Of a stretch of 64,000 nt of DNA, positions 6,907 through 31,660 are shown piece after piece. A program made the translations under genes and the position numbers. This DNA is from Thermodesulfobacteriota bacterium (GTDB lineage Bacteria; Desulfobacterota_D; UBA1144; Nemesobacterales; UBA2774): contig JBFMCV010000004.1 of assembly GCA_040754335.1 (NCBI GenBank), forward strand, positions 62,001 through 126,000. The letters run 5' to 3'. The stretch's first letter is position 1. Each line of letters begins with the position of its first letter. The notes under the pieces were generated by a model. The model was not told where the DNA came from and ran no database searches. It saw nothing but the letters and a program-made list of their open reading frames with translations.

Positions 6907-8223
6907 TTACTGGTTCATCATGTTGAAGAATTCCTTGTTCGACTTCGTTCCGCTCATCTTGTCGAGGAGGAATTCCATAGCTTCGACGGTGTTCATCGGG
7001 CTCAAGACTTTTCTGAGCAGCCATACCTTGTTGAGCACGTCTGCCGGAAGCAGGAGCTCTTCTTTCCTCGTGCCCGAGCGCTGGAGGTCGAGCGCAGGGA
7101 ATACTCTCTTGTCGGCGAGCCTCCTGTCGAGGTAGGCCTCCATGTTGCCTGTTCCCTTGAATTCTTCGAATATGACCTCGTCCATCCTGCTGCCCGTATC
7201 TATCAGGGCCGTGGCGATGATAGTCAGGCTTCCGCCCTCCTCGGTGTTCCTGGCGGCGCCGAAGAACCTCTTCGGCCTCTGGAGCGCGTTCGCCTCCATA
7301 CCTCCCGAGAGCACCCTGCCGCTCGCGGGCGTAACGGTATTGCTCGCGCGGGCGAGCCTCGTCAAGCTGTCGAGCAGGATTACGACGTCCTTACCGTGCT
7401 CCACGAGCCTCTTCGCTTTTTCGAGCACCATATCGGCCACCTGGATGTGTCTCTGTGGCGGCTCGTCGAACGTCGAGCTGACTACTTCCCCGTTGACCGA
7501 ACGCTCCATATCCGTTACTTCCTCCGGGCGCTCGTCGATAAGGAGCACTATGAGGGCGACGTCGGGGTGGTTCCTGGTTATAGCGTTAGCTATCCTCTGG
7601 AGCAGTATCGTTTTACCCGTCCTCGGCGGGGCCACGATCAAACCCCTCTGGCCCATACCGATAGGGATGAACAGGTCGAGCACCCTCGTGCAGAAATCGT
7701 TTGCGTCGTATTCGAGCATCAGCTTCTGGTCGGGGTGAAGGGGGACACGGTTTTCGAAAGCGACTCTTTCCCTGCATACTTCGGGAGAATCGAAGTTCAC
7801 CTCTTCTATCTTGAGGAGCGCCAGGTTCTTCTCGCCTTCTCTGGGCAGCCTTACCTGCCCGCCCACGGTGTCTCCGGTCTTCAAGTTGAAAGAGCGTATC
7901 TGGGATTTCGAAACGTAGATGTCGTCGGGTCCGGGCAGATAGCTGTACTTGGGAGACCTGAGGAACCCGTACCCCTCGGACAGAATTTCTAGCACGCCCT
8001 CGGCATATATGACCCCTTCTTTTTCGCTCTGGGCCTTGAGGATAGCGTAGATGATGTCCTGCTTCGTCATGCGCGAGGTCTCGTCGATCTCGAGGTCCCT
8101 CGCCATCTTCATGAGCTCCGCGCTCTTCTTGTTTCTGATGTCGTTCAGGTGGAGGAAATGACTTTCTTCCGACAAAACTTCCTTCTCTTCGGGTTTTTCC
8201 CGTAATTTGGTTGCTCTAGCCAT
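6907..8223 (-). CDS. rho: Transcription termination factor Rho
   Basis: RNA-dependent helicase that ends transcription at factor-dependent terminators. The 438-residue protein has the N-terminal Rho helix-extended domain ([20 protein letters not shown]), the OB-fold RNA-binding domain with GYGFLR and DDIYVS, and the RecA-like ATPase core. Walker A is APPRTGKT (near residue 195), followed by [12 protein letters not shown], the Q/R loops and the highly conserved SSGRV-equivalent [10 protein letters not shown] and [15 protein letters not shown]. The ATG at 8223 is preceded by AAGGAC at good spacing. The roughly 300 bp upstream is shared with a divergently transcribed secreted-protein gene and is AT-rich; Rho leaders are often self-regulated, but no specific site is visible here. 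Confidence 0.98.
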
Positions 8224-18074: not shown

Positions 18075-18809
18075 ATGAGCAGGGATAGTTCACAGGGAAG
18101 CGGCCGAATACTTTCGTTCCTGTTCGCTTTTACCGTGCTGTTCGTCCTGGTTTTCGGCCTGGGCGTATTCGTAGGCAAGAGACTGAGCCGGCAGGACCTC
18201 AGTATAACCAGGAGTTTCGAAGAAGCCCCTCCCGAGCCGTCTCCGACGCCTGTCGAAGAGACTCCGGATGCGGGATTCGAGCAAATGGCTGAAAGCCCTG
18301 CTCCCGCCGTAGAGGAAGCGGTTGAGGAGAACGCTCCCCCACCTACTCTACCTCCTACCGAGGAAGACGAAAAAGTTGAAACGGAAACGGGGTCAAAGAC
18401 TGTAACGGCCCCCGAAAGCGCCAAGCCCCCCGCTCCGGCCAAGCAGGACGATGAAAGGTTGGCCGAGATCACGCGTGAAATAGAGCGCGAGCTCGAGAAA
18501 AAACGGCCTCAGGAAACGAAGGAGCCCGAGGCCGCCAAACCTTCATTGCCTCATGTGGATCCCGAAGGTGCATATACAGTCCAGATAGGGTCTTTTCAGG
18601 ACCAGAAGCAGGCGAACAGCCTTGCGAGCGCACTCCAGTCGAAGGGATACCCGGTGTTTATAAAATCCATGACGTCCCCCGATAATAAAATCTGGTACAG
18701 GGTAAGAGTGGGAACTTTCAAGGATCTCGAAACTGCCAAGGCATACGGGGAATCGCTGAAGAGTTCGGAGCCTGGCGTAAAATTGGTTTTTATTACTATT
18801 AACAACTGA
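18075..18809 (+). CDS. SPOR-domain membrane protein
   Basis: 244 residues: a short cytoplasmic N-terminus, one membrane helix (about 11-32, ILSFLFAFTVLFVLVFGLGVFVG), a long acidic Pro/Glu-rich periplasmic linker (about 45-160), and a C-terminal SPOR domain (about 163-242: AYTVQIGSFQDQKQANSLASAL, WYRVRVGTFKDLETAKAYGESL). In the family SPOR domains bind peptidoglycan glycan strands lacking stem peptides and target proteins to the division site. It follows argS by 5 bp and is followed 7 bp later by a second, related SPOR gene. Confidence 0.92.
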   Translation: MSRDSSQGSGRILSFLFAFTVLFVLVFGLGVFVGKRLSRQDLSITRSFEEAPPEPSPTPVEETPDAGFEQMAESPAPAVEEAVEENAPPPTLPPTEEDEKVETETGSKTVTAPESAKPPAPAKQDDERLAEITREIERELEKKRPQETKEPEAAKPSLPHVDPEGAYTVQIGSFQDQKQANSLASALQSKGYPVFIKSMTSPDNKIWYRVRVGTFKDLETAKAYGESLKSSEPGVKLVFITINN

Positions 18810-18816
18810 CGCCGCG

Positions 18817-20397
18817 ATGAAGAAGTCCGTACCAGGAATGAGGATCATGATTACAGGACACCCGGTCGTTCGGTTTATAACACGTTTCGCCCCCCTTCTC
18901 GTTTTTCTCGTGCTCTCAGGCACCGCGCCGTCATTCCCGGAAAACACGGCGAAGGGCGTGCACATAGTGGAGTTAAAAACGCAGGCGGGGCTCGTAAAGG
19001 TGTTCCTGCCCGACGATATATCCGCGGGTGACACAGTTTCAGCCTCCGTAGCGCTTTACCCCGGAGGCGTCACGGCGGAGGCTGTGAACCGTAACCTCGC
19101 GATGCTTAAAAGCTGCATTATCGAAACGAGCTTTTTCAAGGTCCCTGCCTCTCAAAAATCCATAAAAATAAACGTCCCCAGGAACTCAGCCGGGACCGAG
19201 ATGAAATTCACTCTGAGAAACGCTTCGATGAAGGTCCTCGACAGCGTGTCAGTGCCTATAAGTCTTTCCGCAGCCTCGCGCGGGAGCTCGGAGGCGCCGT
19301 CGCCATATGACTACCAGTGCCCTCTCGTCGGCCAGGCAGGGAGGGTCGTGGAAATAAAAGGCCCCTTCGACGGTGATTTCGCGACGACTGATTTCAAGAT
19401 CGGGAATAAAAAGGCGAACGTCATCGCCGAGTCCCCGAGGAAGCTCGTTTTCGAGAGCCCTTCAGACGTAATAGGCTCGGTAGAGGTGGTGCTTGTCGAG
19501 CGGAACGTGGAGGTAAGGAGGCCGTTCACGTGCCTGCAGGTGCTGAAGATAGGCGAAGGGGACGCGGTGCCGGTCGTGAGCGGTTCCGCTGCCGGACCTG
19601 CGGTTCCGCAGGATAGAGAGATGAGGGCGACTGAGCCGGGAATTGCCGAAAGGGAGCTTCCCCCCGCCACACAGTCGCTCGAGTTCGGGAGCATTAAAGC
19701 TGAGGAAAACCTGCCTCCCCCGGAGCGGACTGCCGAAGCGCCGGCCCAAGCCTTGGTCCCGGGCTACAGGAATGAGGAGATGAGGATAATTCTCGCAAAC
19801 CAGATGGAGTCCCCGGTCTCGCTCGAGGGCTCTCTAAGCGCGGCGCCCGCCGAATCCGAAGTGGCGGAGCCGGCCGCGGAGGAAGAAAGCGCCCCGTCAG
19901 CGAGAGAAGGTGAATCTATAGTAGAGGCGCCGATCGAAACGGCGCCTGTAAAAAAACCGGAGCAGGATTCTCAGATTCTCACCCCCACCGGGAGCGATGG
20001 CGAAAACGCTTCCGGTATCGTTCCGGGCGGCTCGACGGCTGCCGTGCTCGAAGGTCAGCTCCTGGCCTCGTTCACTGGCGGCGCATTAGAGGACGGCGTT
20101 TCTGATGCGGTCAAACAGCCGGAAGCGCAGCCCCCGGCCGAGGCAGAGCCCCGCGGGAAGTTCACCGTGCAGGTAGCGTCCTACAGGGAAAAGCAGGACG
20201 CCTATGTACTGGCGGACCGGCTGACCCGGAAGGGGTATCAGGCTTTCGTTTCGGAAGCGAATCTCCCCGGAAAAGGCAAATGGTACAGGGTCAGGGTAGG
20301 CCGGTTCGGAACGCGGAAGGAGGCTTCTTCGTTCGGTGAAAGCTTGAAAAGGAATGAGAGCTTTATAAAATCAGTCTACGTAGCCGAGGACGAGTGA
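18817..20397 (+). CDS. Exported SPOR-domain protein
   Basis: 526 residues with an N-terminal hydrophobic export segment (about 25-42, PLLVFLVLSGTAP), an N-terminal region of about 230 residues with two beta-sandwich-like units of no family I recognise (VELKTQAGLVKVFLPDDI; GRVVEIKGPFDGDFATTDFKIG), a long low-complexity Ala/Glu/Pro linker (about 255-440) and a C-terminal SPOR domain (about 444-524: KFTVQVASYREKQDAYVLADRL, WYRVRVGRFGTRKEASSFGESL). The SPOR domain is clearly similar to that of the preceding gene, pointing to tandem duplication. Probably peptidoglycan-binding in the periplasm. Confidence 0.88.
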   Translation: MKKSVPGMRIMITGHPVVRFITRFAPLLVFLVLSGTAPSFPENTAKGVHIVELKTQAGLVKVFLPDDISAGDTVSASVALYPGGVTAEAVNRNLAMLKSCIIETSFFKVPASQKSIKINVPRNSAGTEMKFTLRNASMKVLDSVSVPISLSAASRGSSEAPSPYDYQCPLVGQAGRVVEIKGPFDGDFATTDFKIGNKKANVIAESPRKLVFESPSDVIGSVEVVLVERNVEVRRPFTCLQVLKIGEGDAVPVVSGSAAGPAVPQDREMRATEPGIAERELPPATQSLEFGSIKAEENLPPPERTAEAPAQALVPGYRNEEMRIILANQMESPVSLEGSLSAAPAESEVAEPAAEEESAPSAREGESIVEAPIETAPVKKPEQDSQILTPTGSDGENASGIVPGGSTAAVLEGQLLASFTGGALEDGVSDAVKQPEAQPPAEAEPRGKFTVQVASYREKQDAYVLADRLTRKGYQAFVSEANLPGKGKWYRVRVGRFGTRKEASSFGESLKRNESFIKSVYVAEDE

Positions 20398-25280: not shown

Positions 25281-26360
25281 TCACTCGATCACGACCGACG
25301 ATTCCACTTTACCCGTCTCCGGGTCGTAAATGTATTCCTCTCCCAGGGGATGAGCGGGGAAATCAGCCGTGGTCTCGAGCTCGATGAACTCTCTCAGCTC
25401 GTCCAGACTCTTCGGATAATCTCCGTATAGGCTCTTGTATCTCGCGGCTTTCGCTTGTAATAAAGCTGTGCTTTGGTTTATTTGCTGATCTACGAGAACC
25501 GTATTTTTTACGGATTCGATTTTTGGCGCAATAATGAACTTGCCGCCTACAGGCGAGGCCGGGATTCCTCCCTTTATCATCCCCGCCTTTACCATGTCTT
25601 CCATGGAGTCTGGAAATTTGCCGTATGCCCTGACGTACTCCTTCAGCGATTCGGTAAGCTCGTCCTCGATTGCCATTGTGTCTATCTCTTTGATATTCCT
25701 GAGTGCAAAATCTCTTCTGCCCTCGCTGGGGCTGGTTTCATAGATTATCTCCCAGATCTTTCTCGAGAGCTCGCTGTTCCCTCCTCTGGCATGAGCGGAT
25801 GCCGCCATGCCTTTCATCGATGCCTTCCTCAACGGAGAGATACCCGGTTTATCTGCGGCTTCCCCGAACAGCTCGGCCGCTTTATCGTAGTTCTTGGGAT
25901 AGAAATAGTAAATGAAAGCCTCTTCGAGAGGCAGGCGGTAGTTCTCGGGGTTGTTCTTCCTGCCTTTATCGAATAGCTCTATCCCCTTCATTGTTTCACC
26001 TAGACCGAAAGGCGGCGGCTCCGCGAGGAACGTACCTCCGTACCGGTATGCGCTTACGAACTTCGGGTCTAGGTCCGTGATAATATCGAAGTAGTGGTAG
26101 AGTAGGTCGGGATTCTGCTCTTCGAGTTTTTTACTTCCAAAGTACTGAAGCGCTCTCAGCCAATATATATCCGCGAGCAGCTCGTGGTAACCCATCGAGA
26201 TTTTCTTGAGTGACGAGGACGAGAGATAAAGGCTTTCGTCCACCGAACGGAACTTTCCTCTTATGTCATCGATCTTGTTCTGGAAGGGGACCGATGCGGC
26301 GATTAACAAAGCCAGGATTACTATGGCGAACATAGGCTTTTTCGCGATATATGCTGACAT
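25281..26360 (-). CDS. Membrane-anchored TPR protein of the pilin/ABC cluster, with two pseudopilin-like C-terminal repeats
   Basis: 359 residues: one N-terminal membrane helix (about 10-24, FAIVILALLIAASVPF), then helical tetratricopeptide-type repeats (about 50-230, e.g. YHELLADIYWLRALQYFG, NYDKAAELFGEA). The C-terminal third holds two copies of a motif resembling type II/IV pseudopilin tails: YGKFPDSMEDMV...IPASPVGGKF and YGDYPKSLDELR...FPAHPLGEEYIYD. It begins 3 bp after the ABC permease gene, so it belongs to the same operon. By position it may correspond to the third component of the Myxococcus PilG/PilH/PilI set; I infer this from context, not from proven sequence similarity. Confidence 0.8.
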   Translation of the reverse strand: MSAYIAKKPMFAIVILALLIAASVPFQNKIDDIRGKFRSVDESLYLSSSSLKKISMGYHELLADIYWLRALQYFGSKKLEEQNPDLLYHYFDIITDLDPKFVSAYRYGGTFLAEPPPFGLGETMKGIELFDKGRKNNPENYRLPLEEAFIYYFYPKNYDKAAELFGEAADKPGISPLRKASMKGMAASAHARGGNSELSRKIWEIIYETSPSEGRRDFALRNIKEIDTMAIEDELTESLKEYVRAYGKFPDSMEDMVKAGMIKGGIPASPVGGKFIIAPKIESVKNTVLVDQQINQSTALLQAKAARYKSLYGDYPKSLDELREFIELETTADFPAHPLGEEYIYDPETGKVESSVVIE

Positions 26361-26363
26361 CGG

Positions 26364-27170
26364 TTATTTAAACTCTTTTCTCTCGAAAATAACTGTCGCG
26401 AGTATGAGGAGGGCGAGCGTATATATGACGGCGTATACGGTTGTGTATAGAATCAGGTCGGGGTTGATTACGCCTCCGTACACGGCTTCGCTCCTCACGT
26501 CGAATTTCTCGAGGTTCGGAATGATCCTGTAAACCGCCTCTGAAAATAGTGCACTTACCGGACTTTTTACTTCCTCTGCGAATAATCTGACGTCGCTCGA
26601 GAAGCGCCCAATCGCGATTGCGAAAAAGGTGAATAACGCGCTCAGCACCGGGGTCGTGAAGCTCGAAAAGACGAGCGCTATGCCGATTACGACCAGGAAT
26701 TCGAGGTACTCGAAATATACGGCGTTAAAGAACTCGGCGTAGTAATGTCCCCCGTAATAAAAACTTATTAGACCCTCGTATTTGATTTCTATTAACAATA
26801 CTAGCAGAAAAAGTATAAGCGCCATGCCGAGCGTGATAACGAATAGTGTAAATCCGAGGCCGAGATACTTGCCGAATATGAATTCGTATCTCTTTATGGG
26901 TTTCGAGAAAATGTTGTACACGGTTTTTCTCTCCACCTCTTTATAAACGAGGCCTATGCCGAGGAAGACCGAGATCAGTATCCCGATTACGGATATGGCG
27001 GTGAGACCCAGGTCCTTGACAATCTTGTTATACTGCTCAGCCGATATGCTCGCGAATATGAGCGAGCTCAGGATCATTATTATCGCGAACAGTATCAGGC
27101 TGTAGAGCACCCTGTCCCTGATTGCCTCTATGAACGTATTGTGCGCGACGCTCAGTATTCTTCTCATCAC
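26364..27170 (-). CDS. ABC-2 type transporter permease (PilI-like by context)
   Basis: 268-residue integral membrane protein with six predicted helices in the ABC-2 pattern: TM1 (LYSLILFAIIMILSSLIFA), TM2 (TAISVIGILISVFLGIGLVY), then the amphipathic segment NIFSKPIKRYEFIFGKYLGLG characteristic of these permeases, TM3 (TLFVITLGMALILFLLVLLI), two closely spaced helices (VVIGIALVFSSFTTPVLSALFTFFAIA) and a last helix at the C-terminus. It pairs with the ABC ATPase 31 bp upstream and the TPR protein 3 bp downstream. The cluster with pilin genes suggests a role in pilus function. Confidence 0.86.
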   Translation of the reverse strand: MMRRILSVAHNTFIEAIRDRVLYSLILFAIIMILSSLIFASISAEQYNKIVKDLGLTAISVIGILISVFLGIGLVYKEVERKTVYNIFSKPIKRYEFIFGKYLGLGFTLFVITLGMALILFLLVLLIEIKYEGLISFYYGGHYYAEFFNAVYFEYLEFLVVIGIALVFSSFTTPVLSALFTFFAIAIGRFSSDVRLFAEEVKSPVSALFSEAVYRIIPNLEKFDVRSEAVYGGVINPDLILYTTVYAVIYTLALLILATVIFERKEFK

Positions 27171-27201: not shown

Positions 27202-28149
27202 TTACTTTTCCTTTTGCGGGCTCCCTTTTTTGGCTTCCTCCACGAAAAGCCCTTCGAGGGACTTCCTCAGCGGGTGTATGGACACTATCTCCGCAGACGT
27301 GCGCGTGACGGCTTCGAGGACCCTCCGTTTTATGTCTTCGTCGAATTTCAGCACTATGTATCCTGCTCTATGCTCCATCTCGACACTCAGGTCTTTTACG
27401 CATTGCTTGATTTCGTCGCCCGCTCCTTCGAGGTGCATTTCGTAGTTAGTGTGTATCTCTTTAAGCAGCTCCCCTATCTTTCCGATCTTTATCACCACAC
27501 CCTCCATGATTATCCCCACCCTGTCGCAGAGCGCTTCCACGTCCGAGAGCATATGCGAGCTGAGGAGAATTGTCTTTCCCTTTCTTTTCTCTTCGAGTAT
27601 CAGGTCTTTTATTTCCCTCCGTCCTATAGGGTCGAGCCCGCTCATCGGCTCGTCGAGTATCAGGAACTCCGGGTCGTTAATGAGCGCTTGGGCGATGCCG
27701 ATTCGCTGCATCATGCCCTTCGAATATTTCCTCATCTGTACTTTTCTTGCATGATCCATCCTGACTTTCCCGAGCAGCTCGTCTATTTTTTCGTGGAGGT
27801 GTTTCCGTCTGAGTCCGTGGAGCTCGCCCATGTAATAAAGGAGCTCTTCTCCCGTGAGGTAATCGTAGAAATAAGGGTTCTCGGGCAGATAGCCTATCCT
27901 GCTTTTTGCGTCGGAGTTAGAATGCTCTTTGCCGAGCAGCTCTATCTTTCCTTCGGTAGGAGTGACGAATCCCAGGATCGATTTGAATGTCGTCGTCTTT
28001 CCGGCGCCGTTAGGCCCGACGAAGCCGAACACCTCGCCCTTGGAGACGTCGAAGGATACGTTCTTGAGGACGCGCGTCTTCTTGCCCGTGAATCCGGTTT
28101 TGTAGTCTTTGACGAGGTTCGTGATATTGAGAATCGCTTCTGACATCAT
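27202..28149 (-). CDS. ABC transporter ATP-binding protein (PilH-like by context)
   Basis: 315-residue nucleotide-binding subunit with Walker A GPNGAGKTTTFKSILG (about 45-60), signature YSKGMMQRIGIAQAL, Walker B FLILDEPMSGLDP and the H-loop LLSSHMLSDVEALCD, followed by a C-terminal extension of about 90 residues found in many ABC-2 exporter ATPases. Two possible ATG codons are adjacent at the start. It lies 77 bp downstream of a type IV pilin gene on the same strand and 31 bp upstream of its permease. In Myxococcus xanthus a pilin-linked ABC transporter (PilH) is needed for pilus assembly, which makes a similar role plausible here. Confidence 0.92.
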   Translation of the reverse strand: MMSEAILNITNLVKDYKTGFTGKKTRVLKNVSFDVSKGEVFGFVGPNGAGKTTTFKSILGFVTPTEGKIELLGKEHSNSDAKSRIGYLPENPYFYDYLTGEELLYYMGELHGLRRKHLHEKIDELLGKVRMDHARKVQMRKYSKGMMQRIGIAQALINDPEFLILDEPMSGLDPIGRREIKDLILEEKRKGKTILLSSHMLSDVEALCDRVGIIMEGVVIKIGKIGELLKEIHTNYEMHLEGAGDEIKQCVKDLSVEMEHRAGYIVLKFDEDIKRRVLEAVTRTSAEIVSIHPLRKSLEGLFVEEAKKGSPQKEK

Positions 28150-28226: not shown

Positions 28227-28826
28227 TTATCCGTCGCAAGCGGGATCGTTACGCCCGGATTCGAAAGTACCGGTTGTTCCCGACGCTTGGGATGAAACTG
28301 TACATTTCGTAACTTTATCTGCAAAGGCTGAAAAATCTTTCCTGCCGTTTACCCGTGCGCTCGTCATCGAGGCTTCCCAACCGAAATCCCCTTGTAATGA
28401 TTGCACGTCGCTTCCAGCGTCGTCGCTCCATGAGAGACAGTATCCGGCTTTGGGGTCGACGCAATCAGCGGAGGCTGCGGGACTGCCGTCGCTTGAGACC
28501 GCATCTTCAAAAGTGGAGTCTATTAGCGCATCCTCTGGATTGTTCGTTCCTGCAGGGTCCCTGAGAGTGCCTGCAGTGCCGAGTACACCGATAAAATTTG
28601 TAAAATTTCTGTCACCGTTATTATCCAGATCCTGTTCGAAATACTCGTATTCGGCGTCTTTAAGGGTCTGTAGTGCTTTTCTTGCATTAGCCTCGTTTGA
28701 GGAGATACGGGCTTTTAAGAGGTTGGGGATCGCGATTGCCAGAAGAATACCTATTATCGCCGCGACTACAAGAAGCTCGATGAGTGTAAAACCGTTTTCG
28801 TCTTTTTTATTTTCCTCTTGGTTCAT
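28227..28826 (-). CDS. Type IV pilin-like protein (second of a tandem pair)
   Basis: 199-residue prepilin with a short charged leader (MNQEENKKDENG) and the class III signal GFTLIELLVVAAIIGILLAI, where prepilin peptidase cuts after G and the conserved E5 follows. The hydrophobic helix runs to about residue 33, then the N-terminal alpha-helix (ARISSNEANARKALQTLKDAE) and a beta-rich head with four Cys residues in the DCVDPKAGYC and KCTVSS...DPACDG regions. An AGAGGA lies eight bases before the ATG. The head is related to that of the upstream pilin, so the two arose by duplication. A sigma-54-like promoter lies just upstream. Confidence 0.93.
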   Translation of the reverse strand: MNQEENKKDENGFTLIELLVVAAIIGILLAIAIPNLLKARISSNEANARKALQTLKDAEYEYFEQDLDNNGDRNFTNFIGVLGTAGTLRDPAGTNNPEDALIDSTFEDAVSSDGSPAASADCVDPKAGYCLSWSDDAGSDVQSLQGDFGWEASMTSARVNGRKDFSAFADKVTKCTVSSQASGTTGTFESGRNDPACDG

Positions 28827-29160: not shown

Positions 29161-29739
29161 TTAATCGCAGCCGGGGCTGGTACGATCTGCTTGAAATGTT
29201 CCTGCCGCTCCAACTCCTGATGTGCTAAGCGTACACCTTATTGCACCGTCGCCATATACAGAGAAGTCTCTTCTACCAGTCTTGTTGAAGCTTGTCATAC
29301 TGGTTTGCCAGCCGAAGTCATCAAAATTACCGGCGCCGTTGGCTACTATTGCCGTATCCCACTGAATACAGTATCCGGCCTTCGGATCAATGCAACCCGC
29401 ACCGACTGCACCTTCGAAGCTGCTGTCAACAAGTGCATCCTCTTCTGTTCCAGTTCCCTCTGGGTCTCGTAGTGACGGAACTGTTCCAAAAGCTCCTATA
29501 TCATCGATAAAATCCCTTTCACCGTTGTTGTCCAGGTCCTGCTCGAAATACTCGCCCTCTGCATCTCTCAAGGTCTGCATGGACTTCCTGGCATTTGCCT
29601 CGTTCGCCGACATTCTCGCCTTGATAAGGTTAGGAATCGCGATCGCGAGCAGTATGCCTATGATTGCCGCTACTACGAGAAGCTCGATAAGGGTGAAACC
29701 CTTCTCTCCCCTCTTTACATTCTTTAACGTGCTTAACAT
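29161..29739 (-). CDS. Type IV major pilin-like protein (first of a tandem pair)
   Basis: 192 residues from the ATG at 29739, chosen because AAGGAGG lies eight bases upstream; the frame is open to 29817 but those extra codons overlap the promoter. Short leader MLSTLKNVKRGEKG, then prepilin cleavage site and hydrophobic helix GFTLIELLVVAAIIGILLAI with the conserved E5, followed by the N-terminal helix (ARMSANEANARKSMQTLRDAE) and a beta-rich head with CIDPKAGYC and two further Cys near the C-terminus. The head is similar to that of the next gene. It has a near-perfect sigma-54 promoter and paired upstream boxes, and is followed by a strong hairpin. Confidence 0.94.
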   Translation of the reverse strand: MLSTLKNVKRGEKGFTLIELLVVAAIIGILLAIAIPNLIKARMSANEANARKSMQTLRDAEGEYFEQDLDNNGERDFIDDIGAFGTVPSLRDPEGTGTEEDALVDSSFEGAVGAGCIDPKAGYCIQWDTAIVANGAGNFDDFGWQTSMTSFNKTGRRDFSVYGDGAIRCTLSTSGVGAAGTFQADRTSPGCD

Positions 29740-29782
29740 AGAAATAACCTCCTTTTCGGAAATGAGTCTTGCGAAGATAGGT

Positions 29783-29798
29783 TGCAAAGCCCGTGCCA
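29783..29798 (-). promoter_or_regulatory. Sigma-54 (-24/-12) promoter of the first pilin gene
   Basis: The minus-strand sequence TGGCACGGGCTTTGCA (29798 to 29783) matches the sigma-54 consensus TGGCAC-N5-TTGCA completely, with GG and GC spaced by ten bases. Transcription should begin near 29772, leaving a leader of about 33 bases that contains the AAGGAGG ribosome-binding site of the pilin. Sigma-54 control of pilin genes through the PilS/PilR two-component system is well known in Pseudomonas, Geobacter and Myxococcus. Confidence 0.85.
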
Positions 29799-29920
29799 CG
29801 TGCCGGGGTTTCAGCATATCCCGAGCATAATCTGCCTGAATTTAATGGAAAACGGTCGATTATACTCTTTTGTTATATGTGATGAGGAACTTCAGCTCTG
29901 GCCGCTGACTATGAAAATTG

Positions 29921-30072: not shown

Positions 30073-30603
30073 ATGCATAGAGATAAGCATTTAGTTTTCC
30101 CGCTGGTGGTTTTCCTCGCTGTCTTCGCCCTGCTTGCCGCGGGATGTACTACAATAAAGACTACTTCCTACTTTACTCCGACCAAGACGAAGCTGCGCGA
30201 CTATCAGGCAATGCAGTTCGAAACCTTCGAGACCCAGATCGAGGACTTCCCGAAAGCCGCGCTTACGAAGATACCGGATCAGGCAGCCGCTCTCCTCGAA
30301 TCCGAGAAAAAGTTCAAAGAAGTAAAATTCGGGGAAATTGAAAATATCCCAGCCGAGGATACTATAGTATTGTTAGGGGAGATAAGCGAGTACAGGCCTA
30401 GCTCGGATGTTTCATACGAAGGCGGGGCGCTTAAATTCGGCGAAGTCTCTATAGCCATCAAGCTCGCTCTTGTCAATAAAGCGACAGGTGACGAGATCGC
30501 GACTGGCGAGGTGAACGGTTTCAGCTCGACGGGCTTTATGGCGAAGGACATATTCGAAAGCATGGCCGAGGAAATCGTCAAGTACATCAACGAGACCTAT
30601 TGA
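30073..30603 (+). CDS. Lipoprotein of unknown function
   Basis: 176 residues with a lipoprotein signal peptide: charged start, hydrophobic run (LVFPLVVFLAVFALLAAGC) and lipobox LAAGC with C25 as the acylation site. The mature domain (about 30-176) has alternating strands and helices (TIVLLGEISEYRPSSD, EVSIAIKLALVNKATGDEIATGEV, ESMAEEIVKYINETY), a pattern like small curli-assembly CsgG-type or DUF4410-type lipoproteins, though I do not claim homology. AGGAGG precedes the start by eleven bases. Followed 43 bp later by a TPR protein in the same direction; the upstream pilin gene is divergent. Confidence 0.82.
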   Translation: MHRDKHLVFPLVVFLAVFALLAAGCTTIKTTSYFTPTKTKLRDYQAMQFETFETQIEDFPKAALTKIPDQAAALLESEKKFKEVKFGEIENIPAEDTIVLLGEISEYRPSSDVSYEGGALKFGEVSIAIKLALVNKATGDEIATGEVNGFSSTGFMAKDIFESMAEEIVKYINETY

Positions 30604-30646
30604 GTAACCCGTACAGTCTTGTTTAAAATTACATAGGGAGGATGAT

Positions 30647-31660
30647 ATGAGAAAATTTGTTCTTTATGTTTTGCTGCTGGCTGTAGCCATAGGCGCATTC
30701 AACTTAACGGAGTCCCGCGCGTTAGCACAGAATGCCGCAGGCGCCGCGGGACTATATAAACAGGGCAGGGAGGAGTTCCTGAAATTTACGCCCGAGGGGT
30801 TTGACAAGGCGATATCCCTCTACAACCATGCAATAAAGGCTGACCCTAATTACGCGCAGGCTTACGCGGGCCTGGCTGAAGTTTATTCATTCATGGGTTA
30901 CTACAGGTATCAGGTAAGGGAGGAATACGAAAAGTTCTATAACGACTCGTACGTGAACATGGCGAAGGCGCTTCAGATAAACCCGAACCTCGAGGAGGTG
31001 CAGCTCGCGCTCGCCTACAGCTACCTACAGCTGAGCAGGGAAAAAGACGCGAAGGCAGCAGCGCAGAAGATACTCGCCAAGAACCCTAATAACGCGGAAG
31101 CCATGTATATTCTCTGGTCGGCAAGCGGGGAGAACCCCGACTCGCCCGAGATAAGAAAGGTGCTCCAGCTAAGTCCGAAGTTCGTCCCGGCGTATGTGGG
31201 CCTCGGGAACGCGCTCTTCTTCAAGAAGAGGGCTTACGGGCAGGCGACGGAGAACTTCAGAAAAGCCGCCGAGATCGCACCCTCCGCGCAGATACATAAC
31301 CTCTTCGGCACGGCGCTCAGGACTCAGGGTCACTACAATGAAGCGATCGACGAGTACGAGAAGGCTATAAAGGAGAATCCGAATTACGCGCCTGCCTACA
31401 TGAACCTTGGCATCACGTATTACTATCTCAACAAGTTTAACCAGAACATCGAGAACCAGAAAAAAGCTATTTCGCTTAACCCGAATTATCCCGATGCGTA
31501 CTTCTTTATCGCGCAGGGATACGAGAAAGCCAATAACCCGCAGCAGGCGGTCGTTTACTACAAGAAATTCCTGGATGTGTCCCTGGAACAGGAGATGTAC
31601 GCGGGCTACGCCGCGCAGGCCAAACAGAGGATCTCCGCTCTCGGCGGCGCGGGCAAGTAG
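30647..31660 (+). CDS. Exported tetratricopeptide-repeat protein
   Basis: 337 residues with a signal peptide (MRKFVLYVLLLAVAIGAFNL, cleavage near ALAQNA) and about seven TPR units over residues 35-330, e.g. FDKAISLYNHAIKADPNYAQA, HYNEAIDEYEKAIKENPNYAP and NIENQKKAISLNPNYPDAYF. TPR arrays act as periplasmic protein-interaction scaffolds; the partner is unknown. GGGAGGATGAT precedes the ATG. It probably shares a transcript with the lipoprotein gene 43 bp upstream. Confidence 0.88.
   Translation: MRKFVLYVLLLAVAIGAFNLTESRALAQNAAGAAGLYKQGREEFLKFTPEGFDKAISLYNHAIKADPNYAQAYAGLAEVYSFMGYYRYQVREEYEKFYNDSYVNMAKALQINPNLEEVQLALAYSYLQLSREKDAKAAAQKILAKNPNNAEAMYILWSASGENPDSPEIRKVLQLSPKFVPAYVGLGNALFFKKRAYGQATENFRKAAEIAPSAQIHNLFGTALRTQGHYNEAIDEYEKAIKENPNYAPAYMNLGITYYYLNKFNQNIENQKKAISLNPNYPDAYFFIAQGYEKANNPQQAVVYYKKFLDVSLEQEMYAGYAAQAKQRISALGGAGK

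Follow-up and report, generated by a model that had tools for sequence, protein, structure and literature searches.

The locus described here raises the question of why a protein encoded next to type IV pilin and ABC transporter genes should end in two segments that look like the head of a pseudopilin, and what such a protein might do. It lies in a stretch of 64,000 nucleotides from a Thermodesulfobacteriota contig, called the window below, whose nearest named relatives carry titles that read Candidatus Dadabacteria. The gene of interest is the terminal one of a minus-strand run, where it is preceded by two pilins, an ABC ATPase, and an ABC-2 permease in this order (Table 1); it is separated from the permease upstream by 3 bases, and the convergent gene greA is located just past it. 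Both pilins are also matched by the NCBIfam model typeIV_PilA_Myxo under its cut-off, with E 2.6e-12 for PilA-like 1 and E 1.9e-14 for PilA-like 2. A lipoprotein-like gene and a PilW-like TPR gene (the latter under the cut-off of its model) are divergent from the first pilin at window positions 30073-31660, and in the window's group the pair keeps this position in 7 of 14 loci. At 18075-20397 of the window, two neighboring proteins have, judged by eye, apparent SPOR-type C-terminal domains.

Table 1. Features of the locus, in window coordinates
Feature	Position	Strand	Basis
PilG-type accessory protein, 359 aa	25281..26360	(-)	ORF
Predicted N-terminal membrane helix, aa 7-34	26259..26342	(-)	AlphaFold2 helix
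Highly conserved stretch after membrane helix, aa 60-75	26136..26183	(-)	Invariant residues, 36 sequences
TPR-like helical array, aa 59-209	25734..26186	(-)	AlphaFold2 helices and Foldseek
Pilin-head module 1, aa 213-286	25503..25724	(-)	AlphaFold2
Pilin-head module 2, aa 287-354	25299..25502	(-)	AlphaFold2
ABC-2 permease (PilI-like)	26364..27170	(-)	Pfam ABC2_membrane_2, E 1.1e-8
ABC ATPase (PilH-like)	27202..28149	(-)	NCBIfam drrA/GldA-type ATPases, under cut-offs
Type IV pilin, PilA-like 2	28227..28826	(-)	Pfam N_methyl, E 2.3e-9
Type IV pilin, PilA-like 1	29161..29817	(-)	Pfam N_methyl, E 3.4e-9

The structure of the full protein was predicted by AlphaFold2 from a 36-row alignment with a mean pLDDT of 88.9, and that of the C-terminal 147 residues alone with 94.6. 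The model begins with a predicted membrane helix; a TM-like stretch is present in 80 of the 83 family relatives, and the positive-inside charge test for the orientation of the membrane helix gave 44/80. The prepilin cleavage motif was found in none of the 83 family sequences (first 70 residues, in sequences trimmed to the profile start), and for this reason the protein was not classed as a pseudopilin; with no prepilin motif, and with a membrane helix and a TPR-like array instead, it is not a pilin. In the stretch after the membrane helix, residues D64, Y66, W67, R69, Q72, and Y73 are invariant (alignment A2, n = 36), and this D-x-Y-W-x-R-x-x-Q-Y stretch might be a contact with the permease. 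The Foldseek matches of the helical array are TPR proteins, among them PilF, and none of the Pfam TPR models matches the protein, so that the array is named TPR-like by its fold alone. Whole-protein scans of Pfam and NCBIfam were uninformative and returned only low-scoring TRCF, PdxT, and MamA rows. The TPR fold and the type IV pilus context are shared with PilF/PilW/Tgl; it differs in that no Pfam or NCBIfam model of these proteins matches it, and in that it possesses a membrane helix and the added pilin heads.

The C-terminal part consists of two copies of a module of ~70 residues, each predicted to form a long helix, a short helix, and a beta hairpin (helices 213-246 and 253-258 with strands 275-278 and 283-286 in the first copy; helices 287-312 and 319-329 with strands 343-346 and 351-354 in the second). 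The motifs YGKFPDS (aa 246, position 25625) and IPASPVGG (aa 266, position 25565) mark the first copy, and YGDYPKS (aa 312, position 25427) and FPAHPLGEE (aa 334, position 25361) the second, all on the minus strand. The pairwise local score of the two copies, 56, was equalled in 1 of 5000 shuffles, and a comparison of their profiles within the window's group gave 95.6% (E 1.3e-8); compared with the single module of Acidobacteriota, the profiles of copies 1 and 2 gave 97.8% and 96.3%, respectively. An earlier, sequence-only reading of this DNA had described a soluble TPR protein, adjacent to pilin genes, that carries two tandem repeats similar to a pseudopilin tail. Both motifs on which it relied occur on the minus strand exactly where it had located them, the repeats are genuine by the shuffling and profile comparisons above, and two pilins do lie in the same minus-strand run. 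Its term TPR holds for the predicted fold and finds no counterpart in the Pfam models, and the protein is not simply soluble, given the predicted N-terminal membrane helix.

The likeness of the modules to pilin heads emerges first from the predicted structure. In a Foldseek search of 350,542 PDB chains, ranks 1-5 were all type IV pilins; their E-values were weak (0.32 to 1.4), and E 0.001 was not reached by any of the 71 matches. The remainder were mainly proteasome chains, with more pilins at ranks 25, 26, 38, 44, 48, and 49. When the 169 chains preselected by Foldseek were re-examined by VIA alignment, rows 1-14 consisted entirely of type IV pilins and pseudopilins, including two MBP fusions of a pilin, with Z from 8.1 to 4.3, and the first unrelated row had Z 3.3. 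The top row is E. coli GspG (3g20), aligned with module 1 at Z 8.1 and rmsd 2.2 A over 77 residues; PulG, PilJ, and two structures of the EpsG type lie within 1 unit of it and count as ties. Module 2 was aligned with PulG (5o2y) at Z 6.5 and rmsd 2.4 A over 71 residues, and with XcpT at Z 4.8. The type IV pilin PilJ of C. difficile (4ixj), Foldseek rank 1, aligns across both modules with Z 7.9; however, PilJ is a pilin, unlike the protein described here, and its fit across both heads is non-rigid, with rmsd 9.3.

Sequence profiles point to one particular pseudopilin. A first profile, constructed from Dadabacteria and Acidobacteriota modules and compared with 177,635 PDB sequences, had 22 matches at E<=10, 8 of which were GspG; the top row was 8fje ('E8', short repeated helical stretches) with E 0.00027, and rows 2-4 were GspG with E 0.0024 to 0.059. 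With a broad profile of 42 modules, places 1-8 among the same 177,635 sequences were all taken by GspG (E 2.5e-4 to 4.5e-3), and no other PDB match was observed under E 0.1. For a comparison of profiles by hhalign, 97 modules were pooled, and the GspG heads came from 27 of 30 diverse loci and 10 of 28 Dadabacteria sequences. This comparison gave 96.6% (E 5.3e-10), whereas the controls with the pooled module profile gave 1.0% for reversed GspG, 0.1% for GspH heads, and 0.5% for the TPR region, and reversed modules compared with GspG gave 1.3%. The sub-groups compared with diverse GspG gave 77.2% for copy 1, 44.5% for copy 2, and 89.8% for the Acidobacteriota module; with a profile of Dadabacteria GspG only, the pooled modules gave 81.3%, and the three sub-groups taken singly 14.7, 0.6, and 16.8%, where 0.6% belongs to copy 2.

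The Pfam family T2SSG (PF08334) had no row for the window protein at E<=1, and thus no match above its curated cut-off, and matched 4 of 49 single modules at E<=1 (best 0.02) and, in another set, 10 of 42 at E<=0.1 (best 3.5e-4). A search of 57 genomes of the phylum with the module profile (E<=0.01) recovered PilG-type genes in 18 genomes; the off-target matches within the phylum, found in 10 genomes that all belong to genus g10, were in 10 of 10 the own GspG gene of the genome (E 5.1e-5 to 3.3e-3), and GspG of other genera, including that of the window, was not reached among the 57. In the reverse direction, a search of 6,444 ORFs with a profile of Dadabacteria GspG heads found none of the PilG modules, and its sole match was one lipoprotein-like ORF at E 0.052.

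The module thus has in common with the major pseudopilin GspG/PulG/EpsG of type II secretion (PF08334) the fold of the head and the pattern G-x-x-P ... P-x-x-P-x-G-x-x-[YF]. It differs by the absence of a ~16-residue GspG stretch that precedes the P-x-D-P-x-G motif, and the prepilin N-terminus of GspG is absent from the protein as a whole. GspG also has a calcium site in its C-terminal loop. An origin of the module from the adjacent PilA was considered and rejected, as none of the pilin-motif ORFs flagged in 35 loci matched the module profile (E 1e-3); as judged by these profiles, the likeness of the module is to GspG and not to the neighboring PilA. The pseudopilin similarity claimed in the sequence-only reading is therefore borne out by structure (VIA rows 1-14) and by profile (GspG places 1-8) alike. 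The predicted fold is that of a pilin head rather than an unrelated one, and of the two pseudopilins it had named for a profile search, GspG is matched (96.6%) and GspH is not (0.1%). Its proposal that such a domain mimics or binds pilins is more tentative, as the stand-alone module ORFs described below have no recognised pilus neighbors.

The identity of the protein follows from its counterparts in myxobacteria. PilH, an ABC transporter homologue, was reportedly found by Wu et al. in 1998 to be required for pili of M. xanthus. Passages of PMC3546991 describe a single operon in this organism, MXAN_5783-5780, which comprises pilA, pilG (accessory factor), pilH (ATPase), and pilI (permease). According to passages of PMC3724824, PilGHI is essential for translocation of pilin over the inner membrane, and those of PMC3924187 report that it is needed for PilA export; pilus assembly, too, is described in these passages as requiring it. 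Myxobacteria were selected here by typeIV_PilA_Myxo, whose cut-off was passed in 10 of 195 genomes, all with one genus label (g366) and one of them qualifying only when its neighbors are included in the frame. In 10 of 10 loci the pilin is followed by the family member, the ATPase, and the permease. The family profile matches the gene at the pilG position in all 10 loci of this one genus (E 2.5e-43 to 1e-48), and the encoded protein has one module in each (E 1.7e-9 to 2.8e-12). Moreover, HMMs built from the permease and the ATPase of the window with their relatives match the permease at the pilI position and the ATPase at the pilH position in 10 of 10 loci. An identical order is observed in G084 (L170), of the same family as g366, where the pilin is under the typeIV_PilA_Myxo cut-off.

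M. xanthus PilG (MXAN_5782; TCDB 3.A.1.144.5) likewise has ATPase and permease partners and pilA as a neighbor, and the comparison with it was made through the g366 loci. There are also differences: the gene order is pilin-ATPase-permease-PilG in the window versus pilin-PilG-ATPase-permease in myxobacteria, the window protein has two modules versus one in myxobacterial PilG, and the relatives of the window and the myxobacteria are on opposite sides of a deep branch of the tree. We identify the window protein as the PilG-type accessory subunit of an ABC system like PilGHI; its pilin-head domain, doubled here, is absent from annotation. We regard this identity and the homology of the heads to GspG, taken jointly, as highly probable.

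The family is widespread. A 36-sequence profile (E<=1e-3) has matches in 166 of 386 genomes, the weak ones of which may be other TPR proteins. In the 81 genomes with the strongest PilG-like matches outside the phylum (E<=5e-21), the match extends through the module in 47, stops short of it in 28, and is intermediate in 6; since 28 of 81 end before the module, it is not essential everywhere. According to passages of PMC6060248, a paper on myxobacterial pili, homology matches of PilG, PilH, and PilI occur in almost all bacteria studied, and hence a wide spread of PilGHI is not new in itself. The window's group comprises 14 loci, of which 9 are titled Ca. Dadabacteria; 12 have two copies of the module and 2 have one. 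Of these two, L062 has one copy, and the reading frame of L061, located at a contig edge, is interrupted by a stop. The 24 loci of Acidobacteriota and the 10 of myxobacteria have one module each, and the other 35 loci, hand-picked from the best rows of the 36-sequence profile and thus biased towards modules, include 7 with two modules, 24 with one, and 4 with none. Outside the window's group, most loci (58 of 69) thus have a single head, and a few of the 83 loci are truncated by contig ends.

In 69 of 83 loci, the ATPase and the permease adjoin the PilG-type gene in the same orientation; of the other 14, 9 are situated at a locus edge. A pilin-motif ORF lies on the strand of the PilG-type gene, no more than 6 kb away, in 54 of 83. 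In a tree built from the region preceding the module (82 rows, L061 omitted), the family is divided by a single well-supported branch: the loci ordered PilG-ATPase-permease, 21 in all and including the myxobacteria, are on one side and the closest relatives of the window are on the other. A single origin of the two-module form was rejected, as the tree requires 6 changes, at least 3 of them forced by well-supported branches. A contig titled Bifidobacterium breve (L076) falls inside Acidobacteriota, and by this placement it is probably a mislabelled MAG.

Within the phylum, the PilG-type protein is present in 18 of 57 genomes and the permease in 17 of 57 (the match in G025 being weak, E 1.4e-5), and the two differ only at G021, in which the permease was not found. 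In this genome (locus L062), a pilin and a one-module PilG-type gene are side by side with no adjacent ABC genes. In L053, at about 7208-7908, the permease gene falls into two reading frames, either because it is a pseudogene or through faulty assembly, and the same pattern occurs in G026. Matches to the PilM_2 model are strong in 41 of 57 genomes (E 2.5e-22 or better), and 45 genomes exceed the cut-off of this model; since it matches control genomes as well, these matches are not all necessarily PilM. By this distribution, the PilG-type set seems to be an accessory that type IV pili can do without. A tie to type II secretion was considered and rejected: genus g2, none of whose 7 genomes has the PilG-type protein, has GspG in 6 of 7, and as GspG is present in genomes devoid of the PilG-type protein, the set is not tied to that system.

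The modules, their homology to GspG heads, the family identity with the myxobacterial protein at the pilG position, and the gene linkage are computed results. As an overall explanation we favor, with modest confidence, a PilG-type subunit of a pilus-linked PilGHI-like transporter whose heads handle pilins. The N-terminal helix would tether the protein in the inner membrane beside the permease, and the remainder, which would face the periplasm, is a TPR-like array capped by two GspG-type heads. Most likely, the heads would substitute for a pilin at the membrane exit, and they may form contacts of the pilin-pilin type with incoming PilA or minor pilins. Such contacts could hold pilins at the permease, where the ATPase and the permease would present or extract PilA for assembly. 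The contact mechanism is itself a more tentative proposal than the explanation as a whole.

The strongest competing explanation, although a rather doubtful one, is that the module is a generic domain, a compact extracytoplasmic fold related to the GspG head which caps a TPR array and makes no contact with pilins. PilG-like proteins devoid of the module exist, and the module also occurs outside the family: the small ORFs at loci L133-L137 (also contained within L197-L201) encode proteins of 115-140 aa that by eye resemble lipoproteins, each with a single module. Of 10 neighboring ORFs scanned around them, 7 could be named, as a peptide ABC transporter (three genes), a semialdehyde dehydrogenase, URO-D, an acyltransferase, and a histidine kinase; none of the named neighbors is a pilus gene, and no pilin motif was flagged around these loci. 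The small ORFs were not taken for GspG, their sequences being lipoprotein-like by eye. It is chiefly these stand-alone modules with no recognised pilus neighbors that call for caution about a pilin-specific role. However, the pilin-head ancestry of the module, the pilin-motif ORFs near 54 of 83 loci, and the necessity of the transporter for PilA export, as reported in passages of PMC3924187, all speak against a cap that makes no contact with pilins.

It is unlikely that the ABC complex moves another substrate, be it a lipid, a glycan, or a protein on which pilus function depends, with the heads irrelevant to substrate choice. The permease and the ATPase do match only broad ABC-2 and drrA/GldA-type models, and in 29 of 83 loci no pilin-motif ORF was found on the strand of the PilG-type gene at a distance of up to 6 kb, but the operon shared with pilA in M. 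xanthus and the role in PilA export, as described in passages of PMC3546991 and PMC3924187, argue against this explanation. Slightly less likely still, the heads would mimic pilins in order to seed or cap the base of the filament together with minor pilins, rather than deliver PilA. A pilin-head fold with no prepilin N-terminus would suit this function, and two heads in tandem might look like a few stacked subunits; yet most loci outside the window's group have one head, and PilGHI is described as acting in pilin translocation or export (passages of PMC3724824 and PMC3924187). Finally, although single-sequence and single-copy scores are weak and a VIA Z near 8 can reflect a common arrangement, a chance helix-hairpin similarity to GspG is already disfavored and very improbable in view of the top 8 of 8 PDB sequence matches, the hhalign result of 96.6% against 0.1-1.3% in the controls, and the 10 of 10 off-target genome matches that are GspG, though from one genus.

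Returning to the transporter subunit with pilin-handling heads, the cited passages on PilGHI (PMC3724824, PMC3924187) describe a role in translocation or export with no mechanism, and among titles and abstract openings, with subscription journals outside the search, we found no paper on a pilin-like domain in PilG. The results demonstrate that the pilin-head fold occurs in proteins other than pilins, that the head is doubled in some lineages, and that the three-gene set recurs across many families. A PilG that carries a pilin head leads to a testable idea, namely that PilG recognises pilins through resemblance. A bolder and rather speculative version is that a pilin head was captured as a domain of an ABC subunit, by which PilGHI grips pilins through pilin-pilin contacts and loads them into the inner membrane or pulls them out of it; if true, this would add an ATP-driven pilin-handling step, beside the known assembly motors, in many bacterial families. 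The pilin-head architecture suggests how a little-understood transporter may handle the subunits of the pilus.
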